Source of the DNA: Metridium senile
Taxonomy: Eukaryota > Cnidaria > Anthozoa > Actiniaria > Metridiidae
Direction of reading: 5' to 3'
NCBI GenBank assembly: GCA_949775045.1
Contig: OX459095.1
Coordinates: 25,645,978-25,709,977, forward strand
Length of the DNA stretch: 64,000 bases
Positions 49,657 to 61,847 of the stretch are shown one piece after another; position 1 is the first letter of the stretch, and each line of letters begins with the position of its first letter. Below the pieces are notes generated by a model. That model ran no database searches, was not told the DNA's origin, and saw nothing but the letters and a program-made list of their open reading frames with translations. A program made the position numbers and the translations under genes.

Positions 49657-49803
49657 AACCACACCACACCACACCACACCACACCACACCACACCACACC
49701 ACACCACACCACACCACACCACACCACACCACACCACACCACACCACACCACACCACACCACACCACACCACACCACACCACACCACACCACACCACACC
49801 ACA
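49657..49803. repeat. (CACAC)n pentanucleotide array
   Basis: About 29 nearly perfect ACCAC pentamers end 81 bp before the Mutator-like element. Confidence 0.97.
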
Positions 49804-49884
49804 TCATTATCTTGACAATTTTAGTAAAATATGAAAGAACTAGCCTTGGAGTTTCTAAGTACTATGCAATATTCGCGTCCGATC

Positions 49885-51742
49885 GGGTGCCCGGAAAACG
49901 AAGACCCGGAAAACGAAGACCTAAGACCCGAAAAACGAAGACCCACAAAAATTATCGAGATAAATGCCTTAAACGTCAAAGACCTTTTTACAACATGTTC
50001 TTTTAACGTTTTGGCATTATTTATGACGTTTTACGATGGTTTTTGATGAGGGTCTTCGTTTTCCGGATCCGGAAAACGAAGACCCACGATAATTATCGAG
50101 ATAAACCCCTTAAACGTCAAAGCCGTTCTTACAGCATCTTCTTTTAACGCTTTGGCATTATTTATGACCTTTTACGATGGTTTTTGATGAGGGTCTTCGT
50201 TTTCCGGATCCGGAAAACGAAGACCCACGATAATTATCGAGATAAACCCCTTAAACGTCAAAGCCGTTCTTACAGCATGTTCTTTTAACGCTTTGGCATT
50301 ATTTATGACCTTTTACGATGGTTTTTGATGAGGGTCTTCGTTTTCCGGATCCGGAAAACGAAGACCCACGATAATTATCGAGATAAATAATTATCGACGT
50401 CAAAGACGGGGTGCCCGGAAAACGAAGACCCGGAAAACGAAGACCTAAGACCCGAAAAACGAAGACCCACGATAATTATCGAGATAAATGCCTTAAACGT
50501 CAAAGACCTTTTTACAACATGTTCTTTTAACGCTTTGGCATTATTTATGACGTATTACGTTGGTTTTTGATGAGGGTCTTCGTTTTCCCGATCCGGAAAA
50601 CGAAGACCCACGATAATTATCGAGATAAACGCCTTAAACATCACAACCGTTCTTACAACATGTTCTTTTAACGCTTTGGCATTATTTATGACGTTTTACG
50701 ATGGTTTTTGATGAGGGTCTTCGTTTTCCGGATTCGGAAAACGAAGACCCACGATAATTATCGAGATAAACGCCTTAAACATCACAACCGTTCTTACAAC
50801 ATGTTCTTTTAACGCTTTGGCATTATTTATGACGTTTTACGATGGTTTTTGATGAGGGTCTTCGTTTTCCGGATTCGGAAAACGAAGACCCACGATAATT
50901 ATCGAGATAAACCCCTTAAACGTCAAAGCCGTTCTTACAGCATCTTCTTTTAACGCTTTGGCATTATTTATGACCTTTTACGATGGTTTTTGATGAGGGT
51001 CTTCGTTTTCCGGATCCGGAAAACGAAGACCCACGATAATTATCGAGATAAACCCCTTAAACGTCAAAGCCGTTCTTACAGCATGTTCTTTTAACGCTTT
51101 GGCATTATTTATGACCTTTTACGATGGTTTTTGATGAGGGTCTTCGTTTTCCGGATCCGGAAAACGAAGACCCACGATAATTATCGAGATAAATAATTAT
51201 CGACGTCAAAGACGGGGTGCCCGGAAAACGAAGACCCGGAAAACGAAGACCTAAGACCCGAAAAACGAAGACCCACGATAATTATCGAGATAAATGCCTT
51301 AAACGTCAAAGACCTTTTTACAACATGTTCTTTTAACGCTTTGGCATTATTTATGACGTATTACGTTGGTTTTTGATGAGGGTCTTCGTTTTCCCGATCC
51401 GGAAAACGAAGACCCACGATAATTATCGAGATAAACGCCTTAAACATCACAACCGTTCTTACAACATGTTCTTTTAACGCTTTGGCATTATTTATGACGT
51501 TTTACGATGGTTTTTGATGAGGGTCTTCGTTTTCCGGATTCGGAAAACGAAGACCCACGATAATTATCGAGATAAACGCCTTAAACATCACAACCGTTCT
51601 TACAACATGTTCTTTTAACGCTTTGGCATTATTTATGACGTTTTACGATGGTTTTTGATGAGGGTCTTCGTTTTCCGGATCCGGAAAACGAAGACCCACG
51701 ATAATTATCGAGATAAATAATTATCGACGTCAAAGACGTCCT
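49885..51742 (+). repeat. Left terminal repeat: array of ~141-bp units with higher-order structure
   Basis: The unit runs GGAAAACGAAGACCCACGAT, AATTATCGAGATAAA, CCTTAAACGTCAAAG, ACATGTTCTTTTAACG, CTTTGGCATTATTTATGACG, TGATGAGGGTCTTCGTTTTC. Adjacent units join through a 36-bp perfect palindrome centred on GGATCC. The terminal block (GGTGCCCGGAAAACGAAGAC plus CTAAGACCCG) recurs at 49886, 50410 and 51217, so a block of about 807 bp has been duplicated within the repeat. Confidence 0.93.
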
Positions 51743-52154
51743 TACGTCGGATGCAGACTGACTTATTACAACTTAGATATTATAACTAATTGCAAATTAC
51801 GATATACTGACAAATTACAATGTATTACAAACATCATCCTTTGATCTGTATAGAATAATGTTGCCTTTTACATACCTAGTCATAAAATTATTTCAATAGA
51901 ATACATTGAAATTACAGCTTATGAATGAATTTGAAATGACACATTTGAATTGCAACGGCTTTTCTTATTTCTGTTCTGTCGCTAATAATACAAATATAAG
52001 GTATAATATAATTATAATTTAACGCGCTTATTTGAATATTGTTTAAGCGCGCGTTGTTTTAGAATTTATATATTTTAGGTATAGCAATATGCCCTAGGAG
52101 GGGGGAGGGGGACTCCCTTAAAAATGGATAGGGGTGCCCCCGGGGCAATATGAT

Positions 52155-52190
52155 CACTGATGAAGGTCTAAGTGTAGATCGAAACGTCTG
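52155..52190 (+). ncRNA. Hammerhead-ribozyme-like core motif
   Basis: CTGATGA at 52157-52163, stem II pairing GGTCT with AGATC across loop AAGTGT, then GAAAC at 52181-52185. All conserved core bases of a hammerhead (CUGAUGA and GAAA) are intact. A closed stem III with the NUH cleavage triplet is not evident in the monomer, so activity would need a dimeric or short-stem form as in Penelope/retrozyme motifs. Confidence 0.4.
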
Positions 52191-53034
52191 AATAAATTAA
52201 ACCAAAATCAGGCCAGAGTCAAACCAATTTGTACTTTAACAAAATCCATGATGTTCCGGCAGGGTAGTTCAAAATGCATTTTTTGTTTTATCGAAAAAAG
52301 AAAAGGCAAGTTGTAATAATAAAACGACAGTGTAGCAAAATTAGCATTCACCGGTATTACACAATTACAGAGGAATTCCCTTATCATAGAAGGATTGTTT
52401 GGATTAGTTTACTTATCGTCTTCATCAAAAGCTGGCCTTTCAAACTGACTGCGATTCCCGGTTGAGTTCCCGGTAATTAATGGCTACAAATACTCTCAAA
52501 AGGACGGGAGATATTTGATCCATTGATTTGTGGTTTAAAACAGAATTAAAAATGTCTTATAACCTCATATTACACAAATCGATGTTAGAAGAAAATATTT
52601 TATTACGAGTAACGCAAGGTACGATGTTGGTTGACAATGCATGACTTTTGAATTTGCATGCGTAATTAGAACTCAACACTGTCGTATTTTGCACGAATTG
52701 TAATTTTAAAAACGCTAGGAACAAAATGAACACATGTGTAGATGAATTATAGCAGAATTTGATTGATCTGCTCGTCTGATAGATTCCAATCGTTTTGATC
52801 ATGACAATGTCGTTCTATTTATGACCATTTATAGCATGTAATTTTCATCAAAATAAGATGCCTAATTTCAAATTTCAATTTGATTCCATTCATATCTTCA
52901 GCCTAATTCAATTATTTTAGTCTAATCTTAAATCGGCTTTCAACTCGAACTGTAACTCGAAGTCCAACTCGAAGTCCAACTCGAAGTCCAACTCGGTAAA
53001 TCAGGTCTCCCCTCACCTATTGATGGTTTAATAG

Positions 53035-53215
53035 CGAGTGCGTTACAGATTAGAGTTATAAATCCTCCTATCGAGCTACTGTTGATTACATCAGTGTGTT
53101 ATTCGAAACTTCGGAACTATCTATACTTATACCACATGAGTCCCGTTACAAGCATAGTATATTACAGGGGGAAAAAAGAAAAGAAAAGGCAAAACGCCGG
53201 GCTCCCTGTGAAACC
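53035..53215 (+). repeat. Half copy of the fold-back element
   Basis: Matches the right half of 17023-17299 and the sequence beyond it (AATCCTCCTATCGAG, CTACTGTTGATTACATCA, ATACCACATGAGTCCCG, CGCCGGGCTCCCTGTG). It lies 270 bp upstream of the kinase-transposase start codon. Confidence 0.65.
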
Positions 53216-53482
53216 AGTACCAAAACGAAACACCGGTGTACCAAAACTTTCAAATATCATATTTAAAGATACTTTGACGAATCACTAATACAAAGCCAGG
53301 CTCTCGTGAGACCACCGGCATTGTTGCGATTGTTATATAACGAAATAACGATAATACTAATCGCCTTATCAGACAATTAAGTTGCATATAAATGAACAGC
53401 ATTTGACAGGCATTTGACAAAGTATGTATCTGCCTTGCAAACGCTTCTCAGGTGCCATTCTCATACGAATGTATACTTAGAA

Positions 53483-56400
53483 ATGGCTGCGTTTAAACTG
53501 CCTTCGCTTCGAGTAATTACGACCAATGAAAATGATTACGAGAAGGAATATAACTGCATCTTGGGTAAGGACTTCCCAAGATTTGCTTGGAATCAAATCC
53601 AACACGGTATGTCGATAGGGCAAGGTTCCTTTGGTACAGTTTCTCTTTGTCAGTATAATGGCCAAACTGTTGTCATCAAAAAACTACTCAGTGAAGAGAA
53701 ATCTGATAGGGATATCTTTGTAAAAGAAGCTCGGCTTCTCCATAGCATCAACAGCGACCATATCGTGAGTTTAAGTGCATTAAGCCTGTCGCCATGTGCT
53801 CTGATGTTGGAGTACTGTTGTTTTGACTTTAAACCATTTGGAGGATGCCATTCAGTAAGCAGCCTAGATAAGTGGTTTAAATACGTTGACGGGAAAAACA
53901 TCGTCAATGATTTTTTGTTTGCTAACAAAATCGCTCTCGATATAGCTGAGGGTGTACTTTATTTGCATGAGCGTGACATTGTCCACCGTGACATTAAACC
54001 AGCAAATGTGCTCGTGTCAAATCAACATTATAGTTCCCTTGAAGGGACACGCGTCGAGCAGGCATGGGCAGAAGAACCAATTCGTTGCAAACTGGCTGAC
54101 TTCGGAGAGAGCCGCTCGTATCTTCTCCAGACCGAAGTTAACGTTTTAAGGACGGCCACGGGTAACATTGTTCGTGGCACACCAGCATTTCGAGCACCCG
54201 AGATCTTCTCAGCTGGTACGGAAAAGTTGACCATTTCCGATCTCAAATCAGTCGATATTTGGGCTATGGGAATGGTCTTCTTTGTCATCTTAAATCCCGA
54301 TCTTCGACACCCCTACGAGCTCAATCTAGAAGATGCGCCCACTGGAGAAGCCCTTGAGTATTTAACAAACCTTCACAGACAAAAGAAGCAACCTCAGTAT
54401 TCTGAAAAGTACATGTTACAACAAGCTACAGATTGGTCACGAATTGACGACGCCTATGAAAGATGCACCAGATTCAATCCCGGAGAAAGGCAGTCAGCAA
54501 AGGATATTGCTAATTTGATTGCATATGGCAATGAAATTAAATGCCACTCTATCCCGCTTGCAAGGAGCCAGAGTACTTCGATTGAAAGAGGAAATTTGAG
54601 AGATGACGGGACAAATAGTTGTTCGTTTTTGTCCTTTCACTTTTCCCATGTGGTCAAGAATAGATCACAACAGCCGCCTGTACCTGAAACATGGCAGAAT
54701 ATGGCATCTTTGGCAGAAAAGATTATATCCAACACACCCGCATTGATTAACAAAGTGCGCCAAAAGGAATGCCACTATGATGCAATGGAGGCGTATCGCA
54801 TACTCAAATGCGTGGACATCGTTGATTGTGATTATTCTCTAACAGAAGAAATCATAAGCGATGCTCCCGTTTTTTCTGCCCGTGGAAGATCTGAGCTAAC
54901 AAAAGCGCTAAGAGAAATGTACAACACGGAAGATGTGGAAGCTGGCATTTTCACCTGCGACCGATATATATTTAGTATTTCATGTGTGGGAGGCCATTTC
55001 GTAATCATGGATACACACAGAATTGGAGAGGTGATGGGAGGACGTGGCGGTGGAATTGTCGTGGTATTTGACAAGGAGGACAATCCCCGTCATGTGTGTG
55101 AGTGGATCTGCAAGAGATTGAGATGGTCCAAAGTCAATACCGAGTCGCCGATTTCTCTAGCCCTGCTGAAAAAGGAAACAGAAAGGTTTGTTTATTTAAT
55201 ATCGTGAGTGTACTGTTCATGACATGTCACTCCATATCACTCCATATCGTATTGTTACGAAAGGTTTTGAAATTTGTTTTATCTTCGATAACTTATAAGT
55301 TTCTCTTTTTAACAGTGAAAGTATTGATAAAGAAGGAGTGTCTAAGGAAAAGAAAAAGCAAACTAAAGTCAGTATTGATGAAGACATCACGTTTGTCTTT
55401 AGCAGTGAAGGTATCGATGGGGAAAGTAACACTAAAGCTAAGCAAAGGACAAGGGAAACTACAGTCAACAATAATGATGACGTCAGGTAGGTAAAGGGCG
55501 TGGTATTTTGAACACATGTAGTCTTAAGTCTAACAACTTAACGTTTGTCTTTAGCAGTGAAGGTATCGATGGGGAAAGTAACACTAAAGCTAAGCAAAGG
55601 ACAAGGGAAACTACAGTCCAGGTTGATGATGACGACAGGTATGTAGTGAAGGGCGTGGCATTTTGAACACGTGTAGTCTTTAGTACTTCTACTTCTAACA
55701 ACTTAACGTTTGTCTTTAGCAGTGAAGGTATCGATGGGGAAAGTAACACTAAAGCTAAGCAAAGGACAAGGGAAACTACAGTCCAGGTTGATGATGACGA
55801 CAGGTATGTAGTGAAGGGCGTGGCATTTTGAACACGTGTAGTCTTTAGTACTTCTACTTCTAACAACTTAACGTTTGTCTTTAGCAGTGACGGTATCGAT
55901 GGGGAAAGTAACACTAAAGCTAAGCAAAGGAAAAGGAAAACTACAGTCCAGGTTGATGATGACGACAGGTATGTAGTGAAGGGCGTGGCATTTTGAACAC
56001 GTGTAGTCTTTAGTACTTCTACTTCTAACAACTTAACGTTTGTCTTTAGCAGTGAAGGTATCGATGGGGAAAGTAACACTAAAGCTAAGCAAAGGAAAAG
56101 GAAAACTACAGTCAACAATAATGATGACGACAGGTAGGTAAAGGGCGTGGTATTTTGAACACGTGTAGTCTTTAGTCTAACAACTTAACGTTTGTCTTTA
56201 GCAGTGAAGGTATCGATGGGGAAAGTAACACTAAAGCTAAGCAAAAGAAAAGGAAAACTACAGTCAACAATAATAATGACGCCAGGTAGGTAAAGGGCGT
56301 GGCAGTTTGAACACGTGAAGTCTTTTTTCTAACAACTTAACATTTGTCTTTGGCAGTGAATGGTATTTTTTATTGTTAGAAGTCCATATACGATTGTTAT

Positions 56401-59400
56401 TTATATTTAGACTTTTTTCCTTTTCTTTTGTATTTTTCTAAAAGGAACTGTAAAAGACGCCCCACTTGTATAGACCTCACAATAACACCTCCGAAAAGTT
56501 CTGCCGAAGAGAAAGGAGATGGTAAAGACACAAGGTATACTTCCTGTCCATAATTAAGTATGATAGTGACAAACTGAATCCCTCAACAAACAGTAAACGC
56601 TATGGATTTAGAATATGTTTGTTGTTTTGTTCCAGGGAATTTTCTGGGTTGGACAAAAGTGATGTACAAAAAACAAAGCATCAGTCAAAAGGAAGTGAGG
56701 TATGCATGTGTTTCACCAGGTTTATAAACTCCGTCAAGGGCGTGATTTTTTTTTGCTTTGTCATTATTAGATGCTCATGAAAGCCAAACATAAATCACTT
56801 TATAATCGTCTTTGTGTTACAGAAATCCTGGAAGAATGATCCCAATATTCCATTTTATGAAAGAAACCGCCATGAGAGATACAAGATTGGTGAGGTGGTA
56901 AATATCCTGTTGAAGAAAAGCCACAGTACTGTTGAGAAGTGTAAGAAACATCCTCTAAAAGTACGAGAAAATGCGTCGTTTTTAATTGATCTCACGTGCT
57001 ACGAGGACTGGGAGGACATCAAATCGGATATGAATGGAGAGTACAATAAAGTTCTTCGTTGTGGAGTTTGGACGTTAGAAATTGATGCGGCTGACCACGG
57101 AGATGCCACCACAACAAAAGCAAACGATTTCACTATCATTGCAAAAAACGAGCAGCCGTTGTTATGTACAAAACGCCAATATCACCTTGTGATCAATTCG
57201 AAAAAGAACAAAGCAGAACCATCTTTGGTACGTTCTTTATTTGTTCTTCGTGATAAAGCTGGCAAAATAGTCAACAACGTTTGCTTGCTGCAATACCACA
57301 TTACAAGTGGCGAGGAAAAAGTTGAGCTAAAAGTTAGTGGCCATGGTAATAGCAAATCCTCAAAGCCTTTCCACCCCACTAGCAAGAGTACACTGGAAGC
57401 AGTCAAAGAAAAAGTGCACCAGAAACATTCAAGCAAACTGTATGATGAGCTAGTCAAACAGGCAGGCGGTGCTAGTGAATCGAGGACACCCAGTGACCTG
57501 CCAAGATCCCGCGAACAGGTTTATGATTTAAAAAGAAAAGCAAAAAACACTCAAGATGTTGATGCTGTCAGCGAGTTATTGCTGTATGCCAGGGACAGAG
57601 AAGAAGAGATAGTAATGAAGCACATTGACTATCCGAATGATACTTGGGTACTTGGTACCAAAACGATGTGCTCTGACCTTGAAAGATTCACAACATCAGA
57701 TATCTTGAGCCGTCCTCTTAGTGTAGACCCCACATTCAACTTGGGTAAATTCGAAGTAACCCCAATAGTATATAAGCATCTTTTTTTGAAAAGCAAGGGC
57801 AGTTGCGAACATCCCATCTTTCTTGGTCCTACATTGATTCACCATCAGAAAGACTACGCTACCTTTAAAGTCCTTTCATCCACATGCGTAGGGCAGATCA
57901 GAGGAATCACAAAAGTCAAAGGTTTTATTACCGATGGCGAAAAAGCTCTCCACGACGCCTTCAGTGACGATTTGCAAGACGCTGTTGGGCTTCGTTGTTT
58001 TCGCCACTTTCAGTCCAACTGCAAATCCAAGCTGCAAAACATCGGTATACGCAAGGCAACAGACGAAAAATTTTTCATCGATGCAACTTTCGGAAGACCT
58101 GGTAGCTTTGAGGGAATCTTGGATGCAAAGGACGAGAAAGATCTAACGAGGCGATTGAATGCGGCCAAGAAGGATATGGTTACAAAGGAGAAAGAAGCCC
58201 TAAACATAAGGTCAGAGGGATATTCTTCGAAATACTGGGAGTATCTTTCGAACAATTTCGAAATGATGAGGACGTCTATGATAGGAAAGGTGAGAGCGAA
58301 AGCTGGATTGCCCCTGGACGAGAATGGGAAGCCTGTTCGCTGTTATACGAATACATCGGAGTCGTTGAACCACGTCATGAAACAAGAACGCAACGCTTTC
58401 CTAAGAAACAACGCTACAAAATCCATGACCAAGCTTCAATTCACCAAATATGTATTTGAAGCGATCCACAAACGCCAGCAAGAGGAATTGGCTCAAGCAA
58501 TAGCCGGGTTAAGTGAGCAGTACCTACTCAGCGACGAAGCTAAATATCTGGGGAAAGCAGTAGATGAGTGGTTTGACTGCACGGCAAAGGAAAGGAAAGA
58601 ATACATTGCTAAAATCAACAAAATGTCGATGGAAGATTTGGAGGCTAAAAAGAAAATTCGACTTCACTGCGAAGATTTCTCAGGAGAGAAGGAGTTTCTG
58701 AATGTCAACATTGATCTGGTAGGGAAGCTCCAATCCAAATTTGGCTACGACGCAATAAATTCCAGCCACCTTAAAGATCGCGTAGAAGAATTACTCAATC
58801 ATCCCAGTGCAATACAACCGAAAGCATCTCTAGTAACTGGCGGTAACCCCAAGTACGATGTAGCCAGCATTCAAAGTAAACATGGTCGAGTAGAAGTGAC
58901 TGTTTACAAAAACCACGCAACATGCAGTTGTGGCCGCTTCAAATATGATAATATCTGCGCACACTCGTTAGCAGTAGCAGCCAAAACTGGTATACTCACT
59001 TCGCACCTGTTATTTGTAGAGAAAAAACGCACTAAGCCAAAAAGAAGTGCTATAGCGGAGCACGATGTCAATCATGAAGTGGCTGGCAAAAAAGGTGGAA
59101 GAAACAAGTTCTCTTACAGGCCTAGCAGGGCACAAGGCCAGAAACAAGATGACAAAGGTCAACAAACACCATCCGGACATCCCTACAGTAAGATATATCA
59201 CAATGATAATCCTTTCGTGCTGCAACCTCTTTCAAAGGATTGCCAATCATGCAAGTCTTGTGATATAGCATTTTGTAATAGAAAGAAGATCGTTCCGTTT
59301 GACGTAGTTTTGTCACATAAAGAAAAATGGTACTATCCAGTGGAAGGGAACTGGGCGAAAAGAAAAGCAAGCACAAAGGAAACCACCAGGTATTATCATG

Positions 59401-59540
59401 CATCCAAGTCGTGTTTGGAAAAGCGTTTTCCCTACTTTAATGCTAGCTACGTAGTCATCCCACGAGAAGTGCTGCAATTGCTTACGAAGGTGCACAAAAC
59501 CTACCTATCTAAAGAACTTGGTCTTCAGTTTTCACCTTGA
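53483..59540 (+). CDS. Protein kinase-MULE transposase fusion (10 exons, 1,721 aa)
   Basis: Exons: 53483-55185, 55316-55486, 55555-55638, 55720-55803, 55885-55968, 56050-56133, 56202-56285, 56445-56534, 56636-56699 and 56823-59540 (5,166 nt). Introns are phase 2 except the last (phase 0). The ATG at 53483 has G at -3 and +4; an upstream TTG extension was rejected. Kinase (about 40-350): GQGSFG loop 46-51, K66, E82, HRD 168-170 with N175, DFG 206-208, APE 238-240, D258, R336; all catalytic residues present. Residues 430-550 form an unknown domain with GGHFVIMDTHRIGE. Five identical-length 84-nt exons plus a related half of exon 2 encode SEGIDGESNTKAKQ-type charged repeats. Exon 10 (residues 817-1721) is a MULE transposase: D1118 (VDPTFNLG), D1187 (ITDGEKAL), C1208-x-x-H1211, E1329 (NTSESLNH), and a SWIM finger C1517-C1519-C1528-H1530. 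Cys/His clusters follow at the C-terminus. The transposase presumably binds the terminal arrays; the kinase's target is unknown. An AATAAA lies at 59795-59800. Two separate genes remain possible, but phase continuity argues for one. Confidence 0.85.
55400..56370 (+). repeat. Tandem exon-intron repeat (152-165 bp period)
   Basis: Each unit holds an acceptor TTTGTCTTTAG, an 84-nt exon, a donor GTAKGTA and a short intron with GGGCGTGG and GAACACGTGTAGTC. Five intact exon copies follow a related segment embedded within exon 2 (from 55403). A decayed copy lies at about 56341-56365 (TTTGGCAG, no donor). Confidence 0.92.
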
Positions 59541-61085
59541 AAAAAAGTTCGCTGCTAGAGTAGATAGTAGCAAAAATATATACACACTGACATATAACAA
59601 CAGTTAAGAAACTTAACGATGCACTAAATGCAAAGTAAATGACAAATTTCTGTAACTTTCGCAGTTGATAAAATAGTACTGATGAATGCGTATAATAAGA
59701 TAAAAAATATATGGGGTTTCCGAACGAATTTTCGAGAAAAATTGCTTTGAAGTCGGTTATTTTAGCAACTGGCGTGAGGAGCCTTATTTTGATAAATAAA
59801 ATACAAACTCGACGAAAAAATTAGATAATATATATAATTAGATATCTTTGTAGATGTCACTGTCTGGAAAACAGTTAGTTTTGATCAGTTAGTATGCAAA
59901 CCAGCACTCCTTTGTAATGAAAAAAGTAGGCGGGACGAAATGATGACAAAAATGTCGGGTTTTGGTTCCAAAACAAACAAAAAAGGAAAACTAAATACAT
60001 TTGCACGTATTCTTTCGATTCCCTACTCAAAATAAGTGGTTTCCGGATGATTTCAAAACGTGTTTTCATTCAAGTGTCTCGCAAATCGAAACATTTAAAC
60101 GACGTCACAAAAAGGCGCATACGTCGTTAAGCAAATTATTCTAAACTGAATATGAAAATGTTGGTAGAATATCAATAGTATAGGAAAGGATAACACAATA
60201 ATTTCTCGTTTTTTTTAATAGTATAAATATATATATATATATGTTTCACCGCATATCATTAATAAGAAATGTGTATTTTTATTACCGAAGAAATGTTACA
60301 GTTAAGAAATACTTACTTATTATATTGTGTAGTGAGCATGCAAAATTTATCCAAAAAAGAAACTAATTGTAACTATTTCTTTCTTTTAGTTATTAGAGTC
60401 ATGTTCATAATCATTGTAGGGTAAATTATATAATCAGTCTTTATAATTTTTTTTCTGATTATGATGGTTTATGATTAATAAATATTGATTGATTGATGGT
60501 TTTTGCTTCTTTGATTGTTTTTGTCACAAATCAATTAGAATGAACAAGAGTTTTTAATAAAGATATTACGGTTAAAGCAAAAAAAATCGCCGTAATTTTG
60601 TTTTTGTAAAAATGACCTTTATCTAGATAGTACGAACATTTTCCTCATCAGGCTGTGTCCTAAAGATTGAAATGCTTGAAGCTATATAGGACTGGCGGAT
60701 TATGTCTCCTTTTGCGTTTTGCTTGATTTTTACTAAAATTCCATTTTTCCGAATATCTCGCGAAGCATAAAACATTTTCAAACATTTTTTTCAAACATTT
60801 GTTATTGTTGCTTTGCTCAAAGCTATATAACTGAGTTTCAGCTAATTCCGTTGGTTATTTGCTATTTTTACCCTAGCTATACATAAGAGAAGGGAAGGTT
60901 GGAAGCGAATGCTAATCGAATTGAAGGAAACGCTCTCCACAACGATTTCACGGATCACGGAGGAACGAAAAGCGTTTTCACGAATCAAGTTTTAATACTC
61001 GCGATGTTAACTCTGTTGTTTCTACTAGGCGACGTTTTGACAGATAATCAATATTAACTGGATCTAACAGATATAAAAACCTTTA
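59541..61085. other. 3' region of the MULE
   Basis: No coding sequence is seen. The AATAAA at 59795-59800 is the first plausible polyadenylation signal. The rest is AT-rich spacer to the right array. Confidence 0.45.
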
Positions 61086-61837
61086 TCGTGGGTCTTCGTT
61101 TTCAAAAACCATCAAAAACCATCGTAAAACGTCATAAATAATACCAAAGCGTTAAAAGAACATGTTGTAAGAACGGTTGTGACGTTTAAGGCGTTTATCT
61201 CGATAATTATCGTAGGTCTTCGTTTTCCGGATCCGGAAAACGAAGACCCTCATCAAAAACCATCGTAAAACGTCATAAATAATGCCAAAGCGTTAAATGA
61301 ACATGTTGTAAGAACGGTTGTGATGTTTAAGGCGTTTATCTCGATAATTATCGTGGGTCTTCGTTTTCCGGATCCGGAAAACGAAGACCCTCATCAAAAA
61401 GCATCGTAATACGTCATAAATAATGCCAAAGCGTTAAAAGAACATGTTGTAAAAAGGTCTTTGACGTTTAAGGTATTTATCTCGATAATTATCGTGGGTC
61501 TTCGTTTTCCGGATCCGGAAAACGAAGACCCTCATCAAAAACCATCGTAAAACGTCATAAATAATGCCAAAGCGTTAAAAGAACATGTTGTAAGAACGGT
61601 AGTGATGTTTAAGGCGTTTATCTCGATAATTATCGTGGGTCTTCGTTTTCCGGATCCGGAAAACGAAGACCCTCATCAAAAACCAACGTAATACGTCATA
61701 AATAATGCCAAAGCGTTAAAAGAACATGTTGTAAAAAGGTCTTTGACGTTTAAGGCATTTATCTCGATAATTATCGTGGGTCTTCGTTTTTCGGGTCTTA
61801 GGTCTTCGTTTTCCGGGTCTTCGTTTTCCGGGCACCC
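61086..61837 (-). repeat. Right terminal repeat: inverted ~141-bp array
   Basis: About five units in reverse complement of the left array, ending with a single terminal block. It is shorter than the left array because it lacks the internal higher-order duplication. Confidence 0.93.
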
Positions 61838-61847
61838 GCGTCCGATC

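Follow-up and report, generated by a model that had tools for sequence, protein, structure and literature searches.

A Mutator-like transposon of Metridium senile whose gene probably fuses a kinase and a protease-like domain to the transposase

Can a transposon carry signalling enzymes of its own? DDE transposases are usually thought to rely on host signalling for their regulation. The question is raised by a 64,000-nucleotide stretch of Metridium senile DNA (GCA_949775045.1, contig OX459095.1, here C1:25645978-25709977; "the window"), which holds a Mutator-like element (MULE) with a protein kinase ahead of its transposase. A sequence-only reading had placed both in one gene; this is well supported but was incomplete, since a third domain was missed and the kinase-bearing block turns up together with a RecQ-like helicase as well. 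The element is probably an autonomous MULE whose single gene fuses the kinase, a cysteine-protease-like domain (a putative deubiquitinase) and a DDE transposase with a SWIM zinc finger, the N-terminal block of kinase and cysteine/Asp-x-His (Cys/DxH) domain being an inherited accessory. With a constrained kinase and a putative deubiquitinase as parts of its transposase, the element would bring its own control. Such a fusion would offer direct access to the ways in which transposons cope with the DNA-damage and protein-turnover pathways of the host, and would show eukaryotic DNA transposons, as large viruses do, recruiting signalling enzymes.

Architecture of the element and its gene

The element is complete and spans 11,953 bp (49885-61837). 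As had been claimed, it is bounded by exact inverted ends, whose outermost 62 bases match perfectly, and by an exact 10-bp target duplication, GCGTCCGATC, on either flank.

49875..49884, no strand: left target-site duplication GCGTCCGATC (flank sequence)
49885..49946, + strand: left terminal inverted repeat, perfect 62 bp (end comparison)
49928..51717, + strand: left subterminal array of 141-bp repeats with GAAAACGAAGACC words (repeat analysis)
61110..61794, - strand: right subterminal array of 141-bp repeats (repeat analysis)
61776..61837, - strand: right terminal inverted repeat, perfect 62 bp (end comparison)
61838..61847, no strand: right target-site duplication GCGTCCGATC (flank sequence)

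Three copies of the end motif GGGTGCCCGG stand at the left end (49885, 50409 and 51215) and one at the right end; with the copies at 50409 and 51215, the left terminal repeat effectively exists in triplicate. The 141-bp repeat arrays at both ends carry the word GAAAACGAAGACC 21 times on one strand and 18 times as its complement, and these words are possible transposase binding sites. Outside the element, an ACCAC simple repeat with 29 perfect copies (49658-49803) stops some 80 bp short of the insertion point.

The gene model comprises ten exons with GT..AG borders (53483-55185 to 56823-59540), which form a single open frame of 1,716 aa. The phase-consistent ten-exon gene of the sequence-only reading is retained in its joined, stop-free frame, but not in its length of 1,721 aa. 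We infer that splicing joins exon 1 to exon 10 at this locus.

53483..55185, + strand: exon 1, with start codon, kinase, linker and Cys/DxH domain (gene model; own-genome relatives)
53606..54511, + strand: protein kinase domain, aa 42-343 (Pfam PF00069 1e-29; motifs)
54557..55162, + strand: Cys/DxH domain, aa ~359-560, with Q363, C380 and D510-x-H512 (alignment, profile comparisons)
55316..55486, + strand: exon 2 (gene model)
55558..55638, + strand: exon 3, tandem 81-bp linker exon (repeat analysis, gene model)
55723..55803, + strand: exon 4, tandem 81-bp (repeat analysis, gene model)
55888..55968, + strand: exon 5, tandem 81-bp (repeat analysis, gene model)
56053..56133, + strand: exon 6, tandem 81-bp (repeat analysis, gene model)
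56205..56285, + strand: exon 7, tandem 81-bp (repeat analysis, gene model)
56445..56534, + strand: exon 8 (gene model)
56636..56699, + strand: exon 9 (gene model)
56823..59540, + strand: exon 10, with MULE transposase and stop codon (gene model, Pfam, alignment)
57561..58544, + strand: RNase H-like DDE core, exon residues 247-574, with D302, D371, CxxH 392-395 and E513 (alignment, predicted fold)
58893..58982, + strand: SWIM zinc finger (Pfam PF04434 2.5e-6)

The conserved third domain, the five tandem 81-bp exons and the three left-end motif copies go beyond the earlier description. About six tandem copies of a ~165-bp exon-intron unit lie at 55389-56366 and lengthen the charged linker between the block and the transposase.

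Domains of the predicted protein

The kinase has the features of a eukaryotic protein kinase. Specifically, the G-loop (IGQGSFGTV), the VxK lysine (VVIKK), HRD (HRDIKPAN), DFG and APE are all present, as the sequence-only reading had listed them, and the Pfam Pkinase match reaches 1e-29. Against the PDB the domain matched 536 sequences at E <= 1e-5, the best being IRE1 (8.2e-15). Among seven block sequences compared, the HxD aspartate, DFG, Cys and DxH occur in 7/7, and the G-loop and VxK patterns in 5/7 each: P0081, which starts late, is without both, while the helicase-bearing loci L057 and L058 (see below) are without one each and have HMD and HGD, respectively, in place of HRD.

Past the kinase, exon 1 encodes a third domain of about 200 residues, situated between kinase and transposase. 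Q363, C380, D510 and H512 are among its invariant residues in an eight-member alignment, two members of which have one X for a stop; the Cys followed by Asp-x-His is invariant in 8/8, with 130 residues from C380 to D510. The domain is a putative papain-like cysteine protease or deubiquitinase.

MULE transposases have a CxxH between the second D and the E. Exon 10 encodes an RNase H-fold DDE transposase with CxxH ahead of the catalytic E; D302, D371, C392, H395 and E513 are invariant across 21 aligned proteins, the window's included, and the predicted fold gives ISCth4 as its best match. The SWIM finger, frequent but not universal in Mutator-like elements, exceeds the Pfam cut-off (PF04434, 2.5e-6), so both the D-D-CxxH-E and the SWIM assignments of the earlier reading hold. 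The Pfam MULE match itself (E 0.0019, 19.0 bits) lies below its cut-off of 27.6. Among 80 hits, four carry a precomputed PF10551, one of these also PF00872, and one more carries PF00872 alone.

These features agree with the available part of PMC6446971, in which MULE clades share a DDE transposase, inverted ends and 8-11-bp duplications, with a SWIM finger in many, as the sequence-only reading had also stated; the duplications are 10 bp here and in three of the four other copies read. The accessory domains given in the main text of that source, as far as available, are OTU, SET, FAR1, FLYWCH, PHD and others, with no mention of a kinase. The sequence-only reading was not aware of the combination, and no published transposon of this architecture was found in the open-licence literature, a search that did not cover Repbase.

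Relatives that carry the block

The block is found with related transposases at further loci. In P0064 the kinase, Cys/DxH domain and transposase lie within a single uninterrupted 1,200-aa open reading frame (ORF), and P0081 (Actinostola) holds the block and the C-terminal part of the transposase; block identity among P0064, P0081 and the window is 31-34% pairwise. In the M. senile genome (389 Mb in 169 contigs), an intact block lies ~5 kb upstream of a transposase ORF at C3:18736327 (43% identity), and at C4:19174324 a block divided over several exons lies ahead of a transposase ORF. The C3 element has long inverted repeats; no target duplication could be fixed for it. The own-genome block search gave 31 matches (77 of 116 candidates scored), and degraded pieces of closer block copies were found at C4:8285706 and C4:8300482. 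The identity between the window and C3 blocks at codon positions 1, 2 and 3 is 0.53, 0.68 and 0.32 (third position by shuffle, 0.26), with a similar pattern in the kinase and Cys/DxH parts; therefore, the block has been under long, strong purifying selection.

These relatives decide whether this one element captured a host kinase gene by chance, in the manner of a Pack-MULE and with no function. MULEs often take up host sequence, according to the available part of PMC6446971, and a related family described below seems to be without the block. However, the same block sits with related transposases at independent loci (P0064, P0081, C3 and C4, 31-43% identity) and shows strong codon constraint between the window and C3, so we rule out chance capture and leave it next to no probability. 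The four loci supply the other copies with kinase and transposase together that had been sought, and contradict the proposition that other copies consistently lack the kinase. Since some relatives keep the same arrangement, the kinase and protease-like domains look like working parts of the element.

The block and the transposase might instead be made as separate proteins of the same element, by alternative splicing or from two transcripts, with the block working in trans as an accessory protein would. The whole block is encoded by a single exon, several kb separate block and transposase in the C3 and C4 relatives, and the TBE transposons of Oxytricha (Tc1/mariner) likewise have a kinase domain, in a 57kD ORF; according to the available part of PMC4724952, this ORF is separate, also contains a zinc finger and is unfused to the transposase of that other superfamily. 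Against this stand the single uninterrupted ORF of P0064 and the phase-consistent ten-exon model, which joins block and transposase without a stop. We regard separate proteins as unlikely, though worth keeping in view, and the fused protein as the better reading.

Copies of the element in the genome

A search with the left end found at least 74 matches, including the window's own, many of them paired in opposite orientation at a spacing of about 0.9-3 kb. Four further copies were read at the base level. In three of the four, those on C12, C10 and C7, both ends are present and the 10-bp duplication is perfect (GTCGAGCACT, GACGACATCA and CTAAAATTTC, respectively), a length within the 9-11 bp that the sequence-only reading had proposed to look for in other copies; the right end of the C13 copy is short of its last bases. 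The C7 copy shares 98.4% identity over 2,219 bp with the element's right part, and the last 79 transposase residues are 99% identical; it is a relative with an internal deletion. Given the other copies with both ends and perfect duplications, and the deleted relative on C7, the family has moved in the past.

The presence of one intact copy would suit a domesticated host gene that kept old transposon ends by accident. The intact 62-bp ends, the exact duplication, the numerous short copies that share these ends and the deleted copy at 98.4% identity all speak against domestication, which we consider highly improbable.

Evidence against the fusion and proposed mechanism

Several results weigh against an autonomous element with a working fusion protein. 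At this locus the joining of exon 1 to exon 10 is a prediction of the gene model. The kinase looks active by its motifs, and its activity, like the protease activity of the Cys/DxH domain, is a prediction. The genome search, in which 50 of 89 candidates were scored, gave a single intact copy of the family, and the gene model of P0081 continues into other sequence. The degraded C4 copies have dN/dS of ~0.7 and ~1.1, as dead copies would show, giving no support for constraint. In the transposase tree the five rows labelled as kinase-bearing are scattered, requiring five changes, as many as shuffles; most other rows are of unlabelled kinase state, and the unlabelled L036 is the same locus as L060. 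The block may go back to a single ancient origin followed by losses, or to repeated gain or exchange. In the protein database, exon-1 residues 345-570 gave no hit among 817 candidates 316-1005 aa long, and with the full-length protein P0081 was the sole hit among 4417 candidates; these searches are insensitive, because the full-length search missed P0064, whose length was in range.

The related high-copy MULE-like family (L015-L026) belongs with these points. It has 12 own-genome matches with a 974-aa open frame, all 12 with a 919-aa ORF sharing its first 30 residues, and is perhaps recently active. No kinase was found in the ~7 kb upstream of the one family copy checked, none of the 31 scored block matches falls within 20 kb of the 12 family matches, and the family seems to be without the block. 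For this reason, the block is an accessory with no requirement for transposition.

In the proposed mechanism, the transposase would bind the arrayed end repeats and move the element, leaving 10-bp target duplications, past movement being shown by the copies. The N-terminal block would be an inherited accessory tethered to the transposase. The tethered kinase may bring phosphorylation to the transposition complex or to nearby repair and chromatin factors, where the second domain, if active, would remove ubiquitin; the block could thereby protect the transposase or tune it to the state of the cell.

Helicase-bearing loci and comparison with VTD deubiquitinases

The block also accompanies a RecQ-like helicase. 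A 2,058-aa ORF on C8 (L057:137-6310; C8:16671137-16677310, minus strand) joins kinase, Cys/DxH domain and RecQ-like helicase (DEAD 1.1e-29, Helicase_C 1.2e-11; RecQ_Zn_bind and RQC below cut-off), and also has a weak MULE match (0.0086, below cut-off). At L058 (C14:15182001-15187000) a DEAD/RecQ-like helicase likewise stands with a kinase and a Cys/DxH domain, the start of the kinase being in a separate upstream frame. The block version of L057 is divergent from the MULE type, and in a block tree of eight rows L057 and L058 split from that type at 100/100, with weak support within it. The L057 ORF is possibly a second kind of kinase-bearing transposon. A helicase accessory is also known from the RecQ-bearing Kolobok lineages (KolobokH), which belong to a different superfamily and for which the available part of PMC9587614 mentions no kinase.

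The Cys/DxH domain resembles VTD deubiquitinases in the order of Cys and Asp-x-His and in their spacing of about 120-130 residues, the published values being C322/D451 (129) in DrT1-VTD2 and C319/D440 (121) in Wc-VTD1. Such domains of herpesvirus tegument type are also carried by transposons; they are reported from Helitrons, and cnidarian examples are fused to domains associated with transposons. The elements studied in the available part of PMC9741609 are rolling-circle Helitrons, with no kinase mentioned, and the similarity to our domain is marginal in sequence. Searches of Pfam and PDB with the Cys/DxH domain gave no match over the cut-off, and the PDB profile searches no VTD. PF04843 was reached by one of eight block members, at E 0.08, under the cut-off and alongside unrelated families at similar E. 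Five of six fetched own-genome VTD domains were aligned, all five matching PF04843; compared with these by hhalign, the eight-member block alignment gave E 0.1 (probability 0.6%) and the four-member alignment E 0.013 (probability 3.4%), in both cases with the DxH motifs in register, and the script scores of the comparisons were reached in 2 and in 1 of 200 column shuffles, respectively. The likeness is suggestive in motif and position, and no proof of common descent. The AlphaFold model of exon 1, built with three sequences, falls short of a usable confidence (pLDDT 33.5). A PDCD10 match (E 0.007) was set aside, its aligned stretch holding neither the Cys nor the DxH.

A wider reading is that two or more highly dissimilar cnidarian transposon types (SWIM MULEs and the RecQ-helicase type) have inherited or exchanged a portable kinase and deubiquitinase-like block, which is tethered to their transposases and controls host ubiquitin and phosphorylation at the transposition site, like herpesvirus tegument enzymes. 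We hold this only tentatively and think it rather doubtful. The own-genome PF04843 search listed 20 matches at E <= 10 (10 above the cut-off alone, and 4 more pieces with their neighbours), with matches in 0/14 control genomes; no kinase-block locus is among the 20, which slightly lowered our estimate for the portable block. The kinase-block alignment gave 28 pattern matches in viral contigs and 13 in prokaryotic ones, with no relative among them.

Additionally, C1:45180147-45180614 and 13 other pieces of the genome exceed the Herpes_teg_N cut-off, one within a 2,701-aa open frame, and are likely VTD domains of other elements. Directly ahead of five of the six fetched Herpes_teg_N domains stands the motif D[VI][EA]KNPGP, which we take to resemble that of 2A-like skipping peptides.

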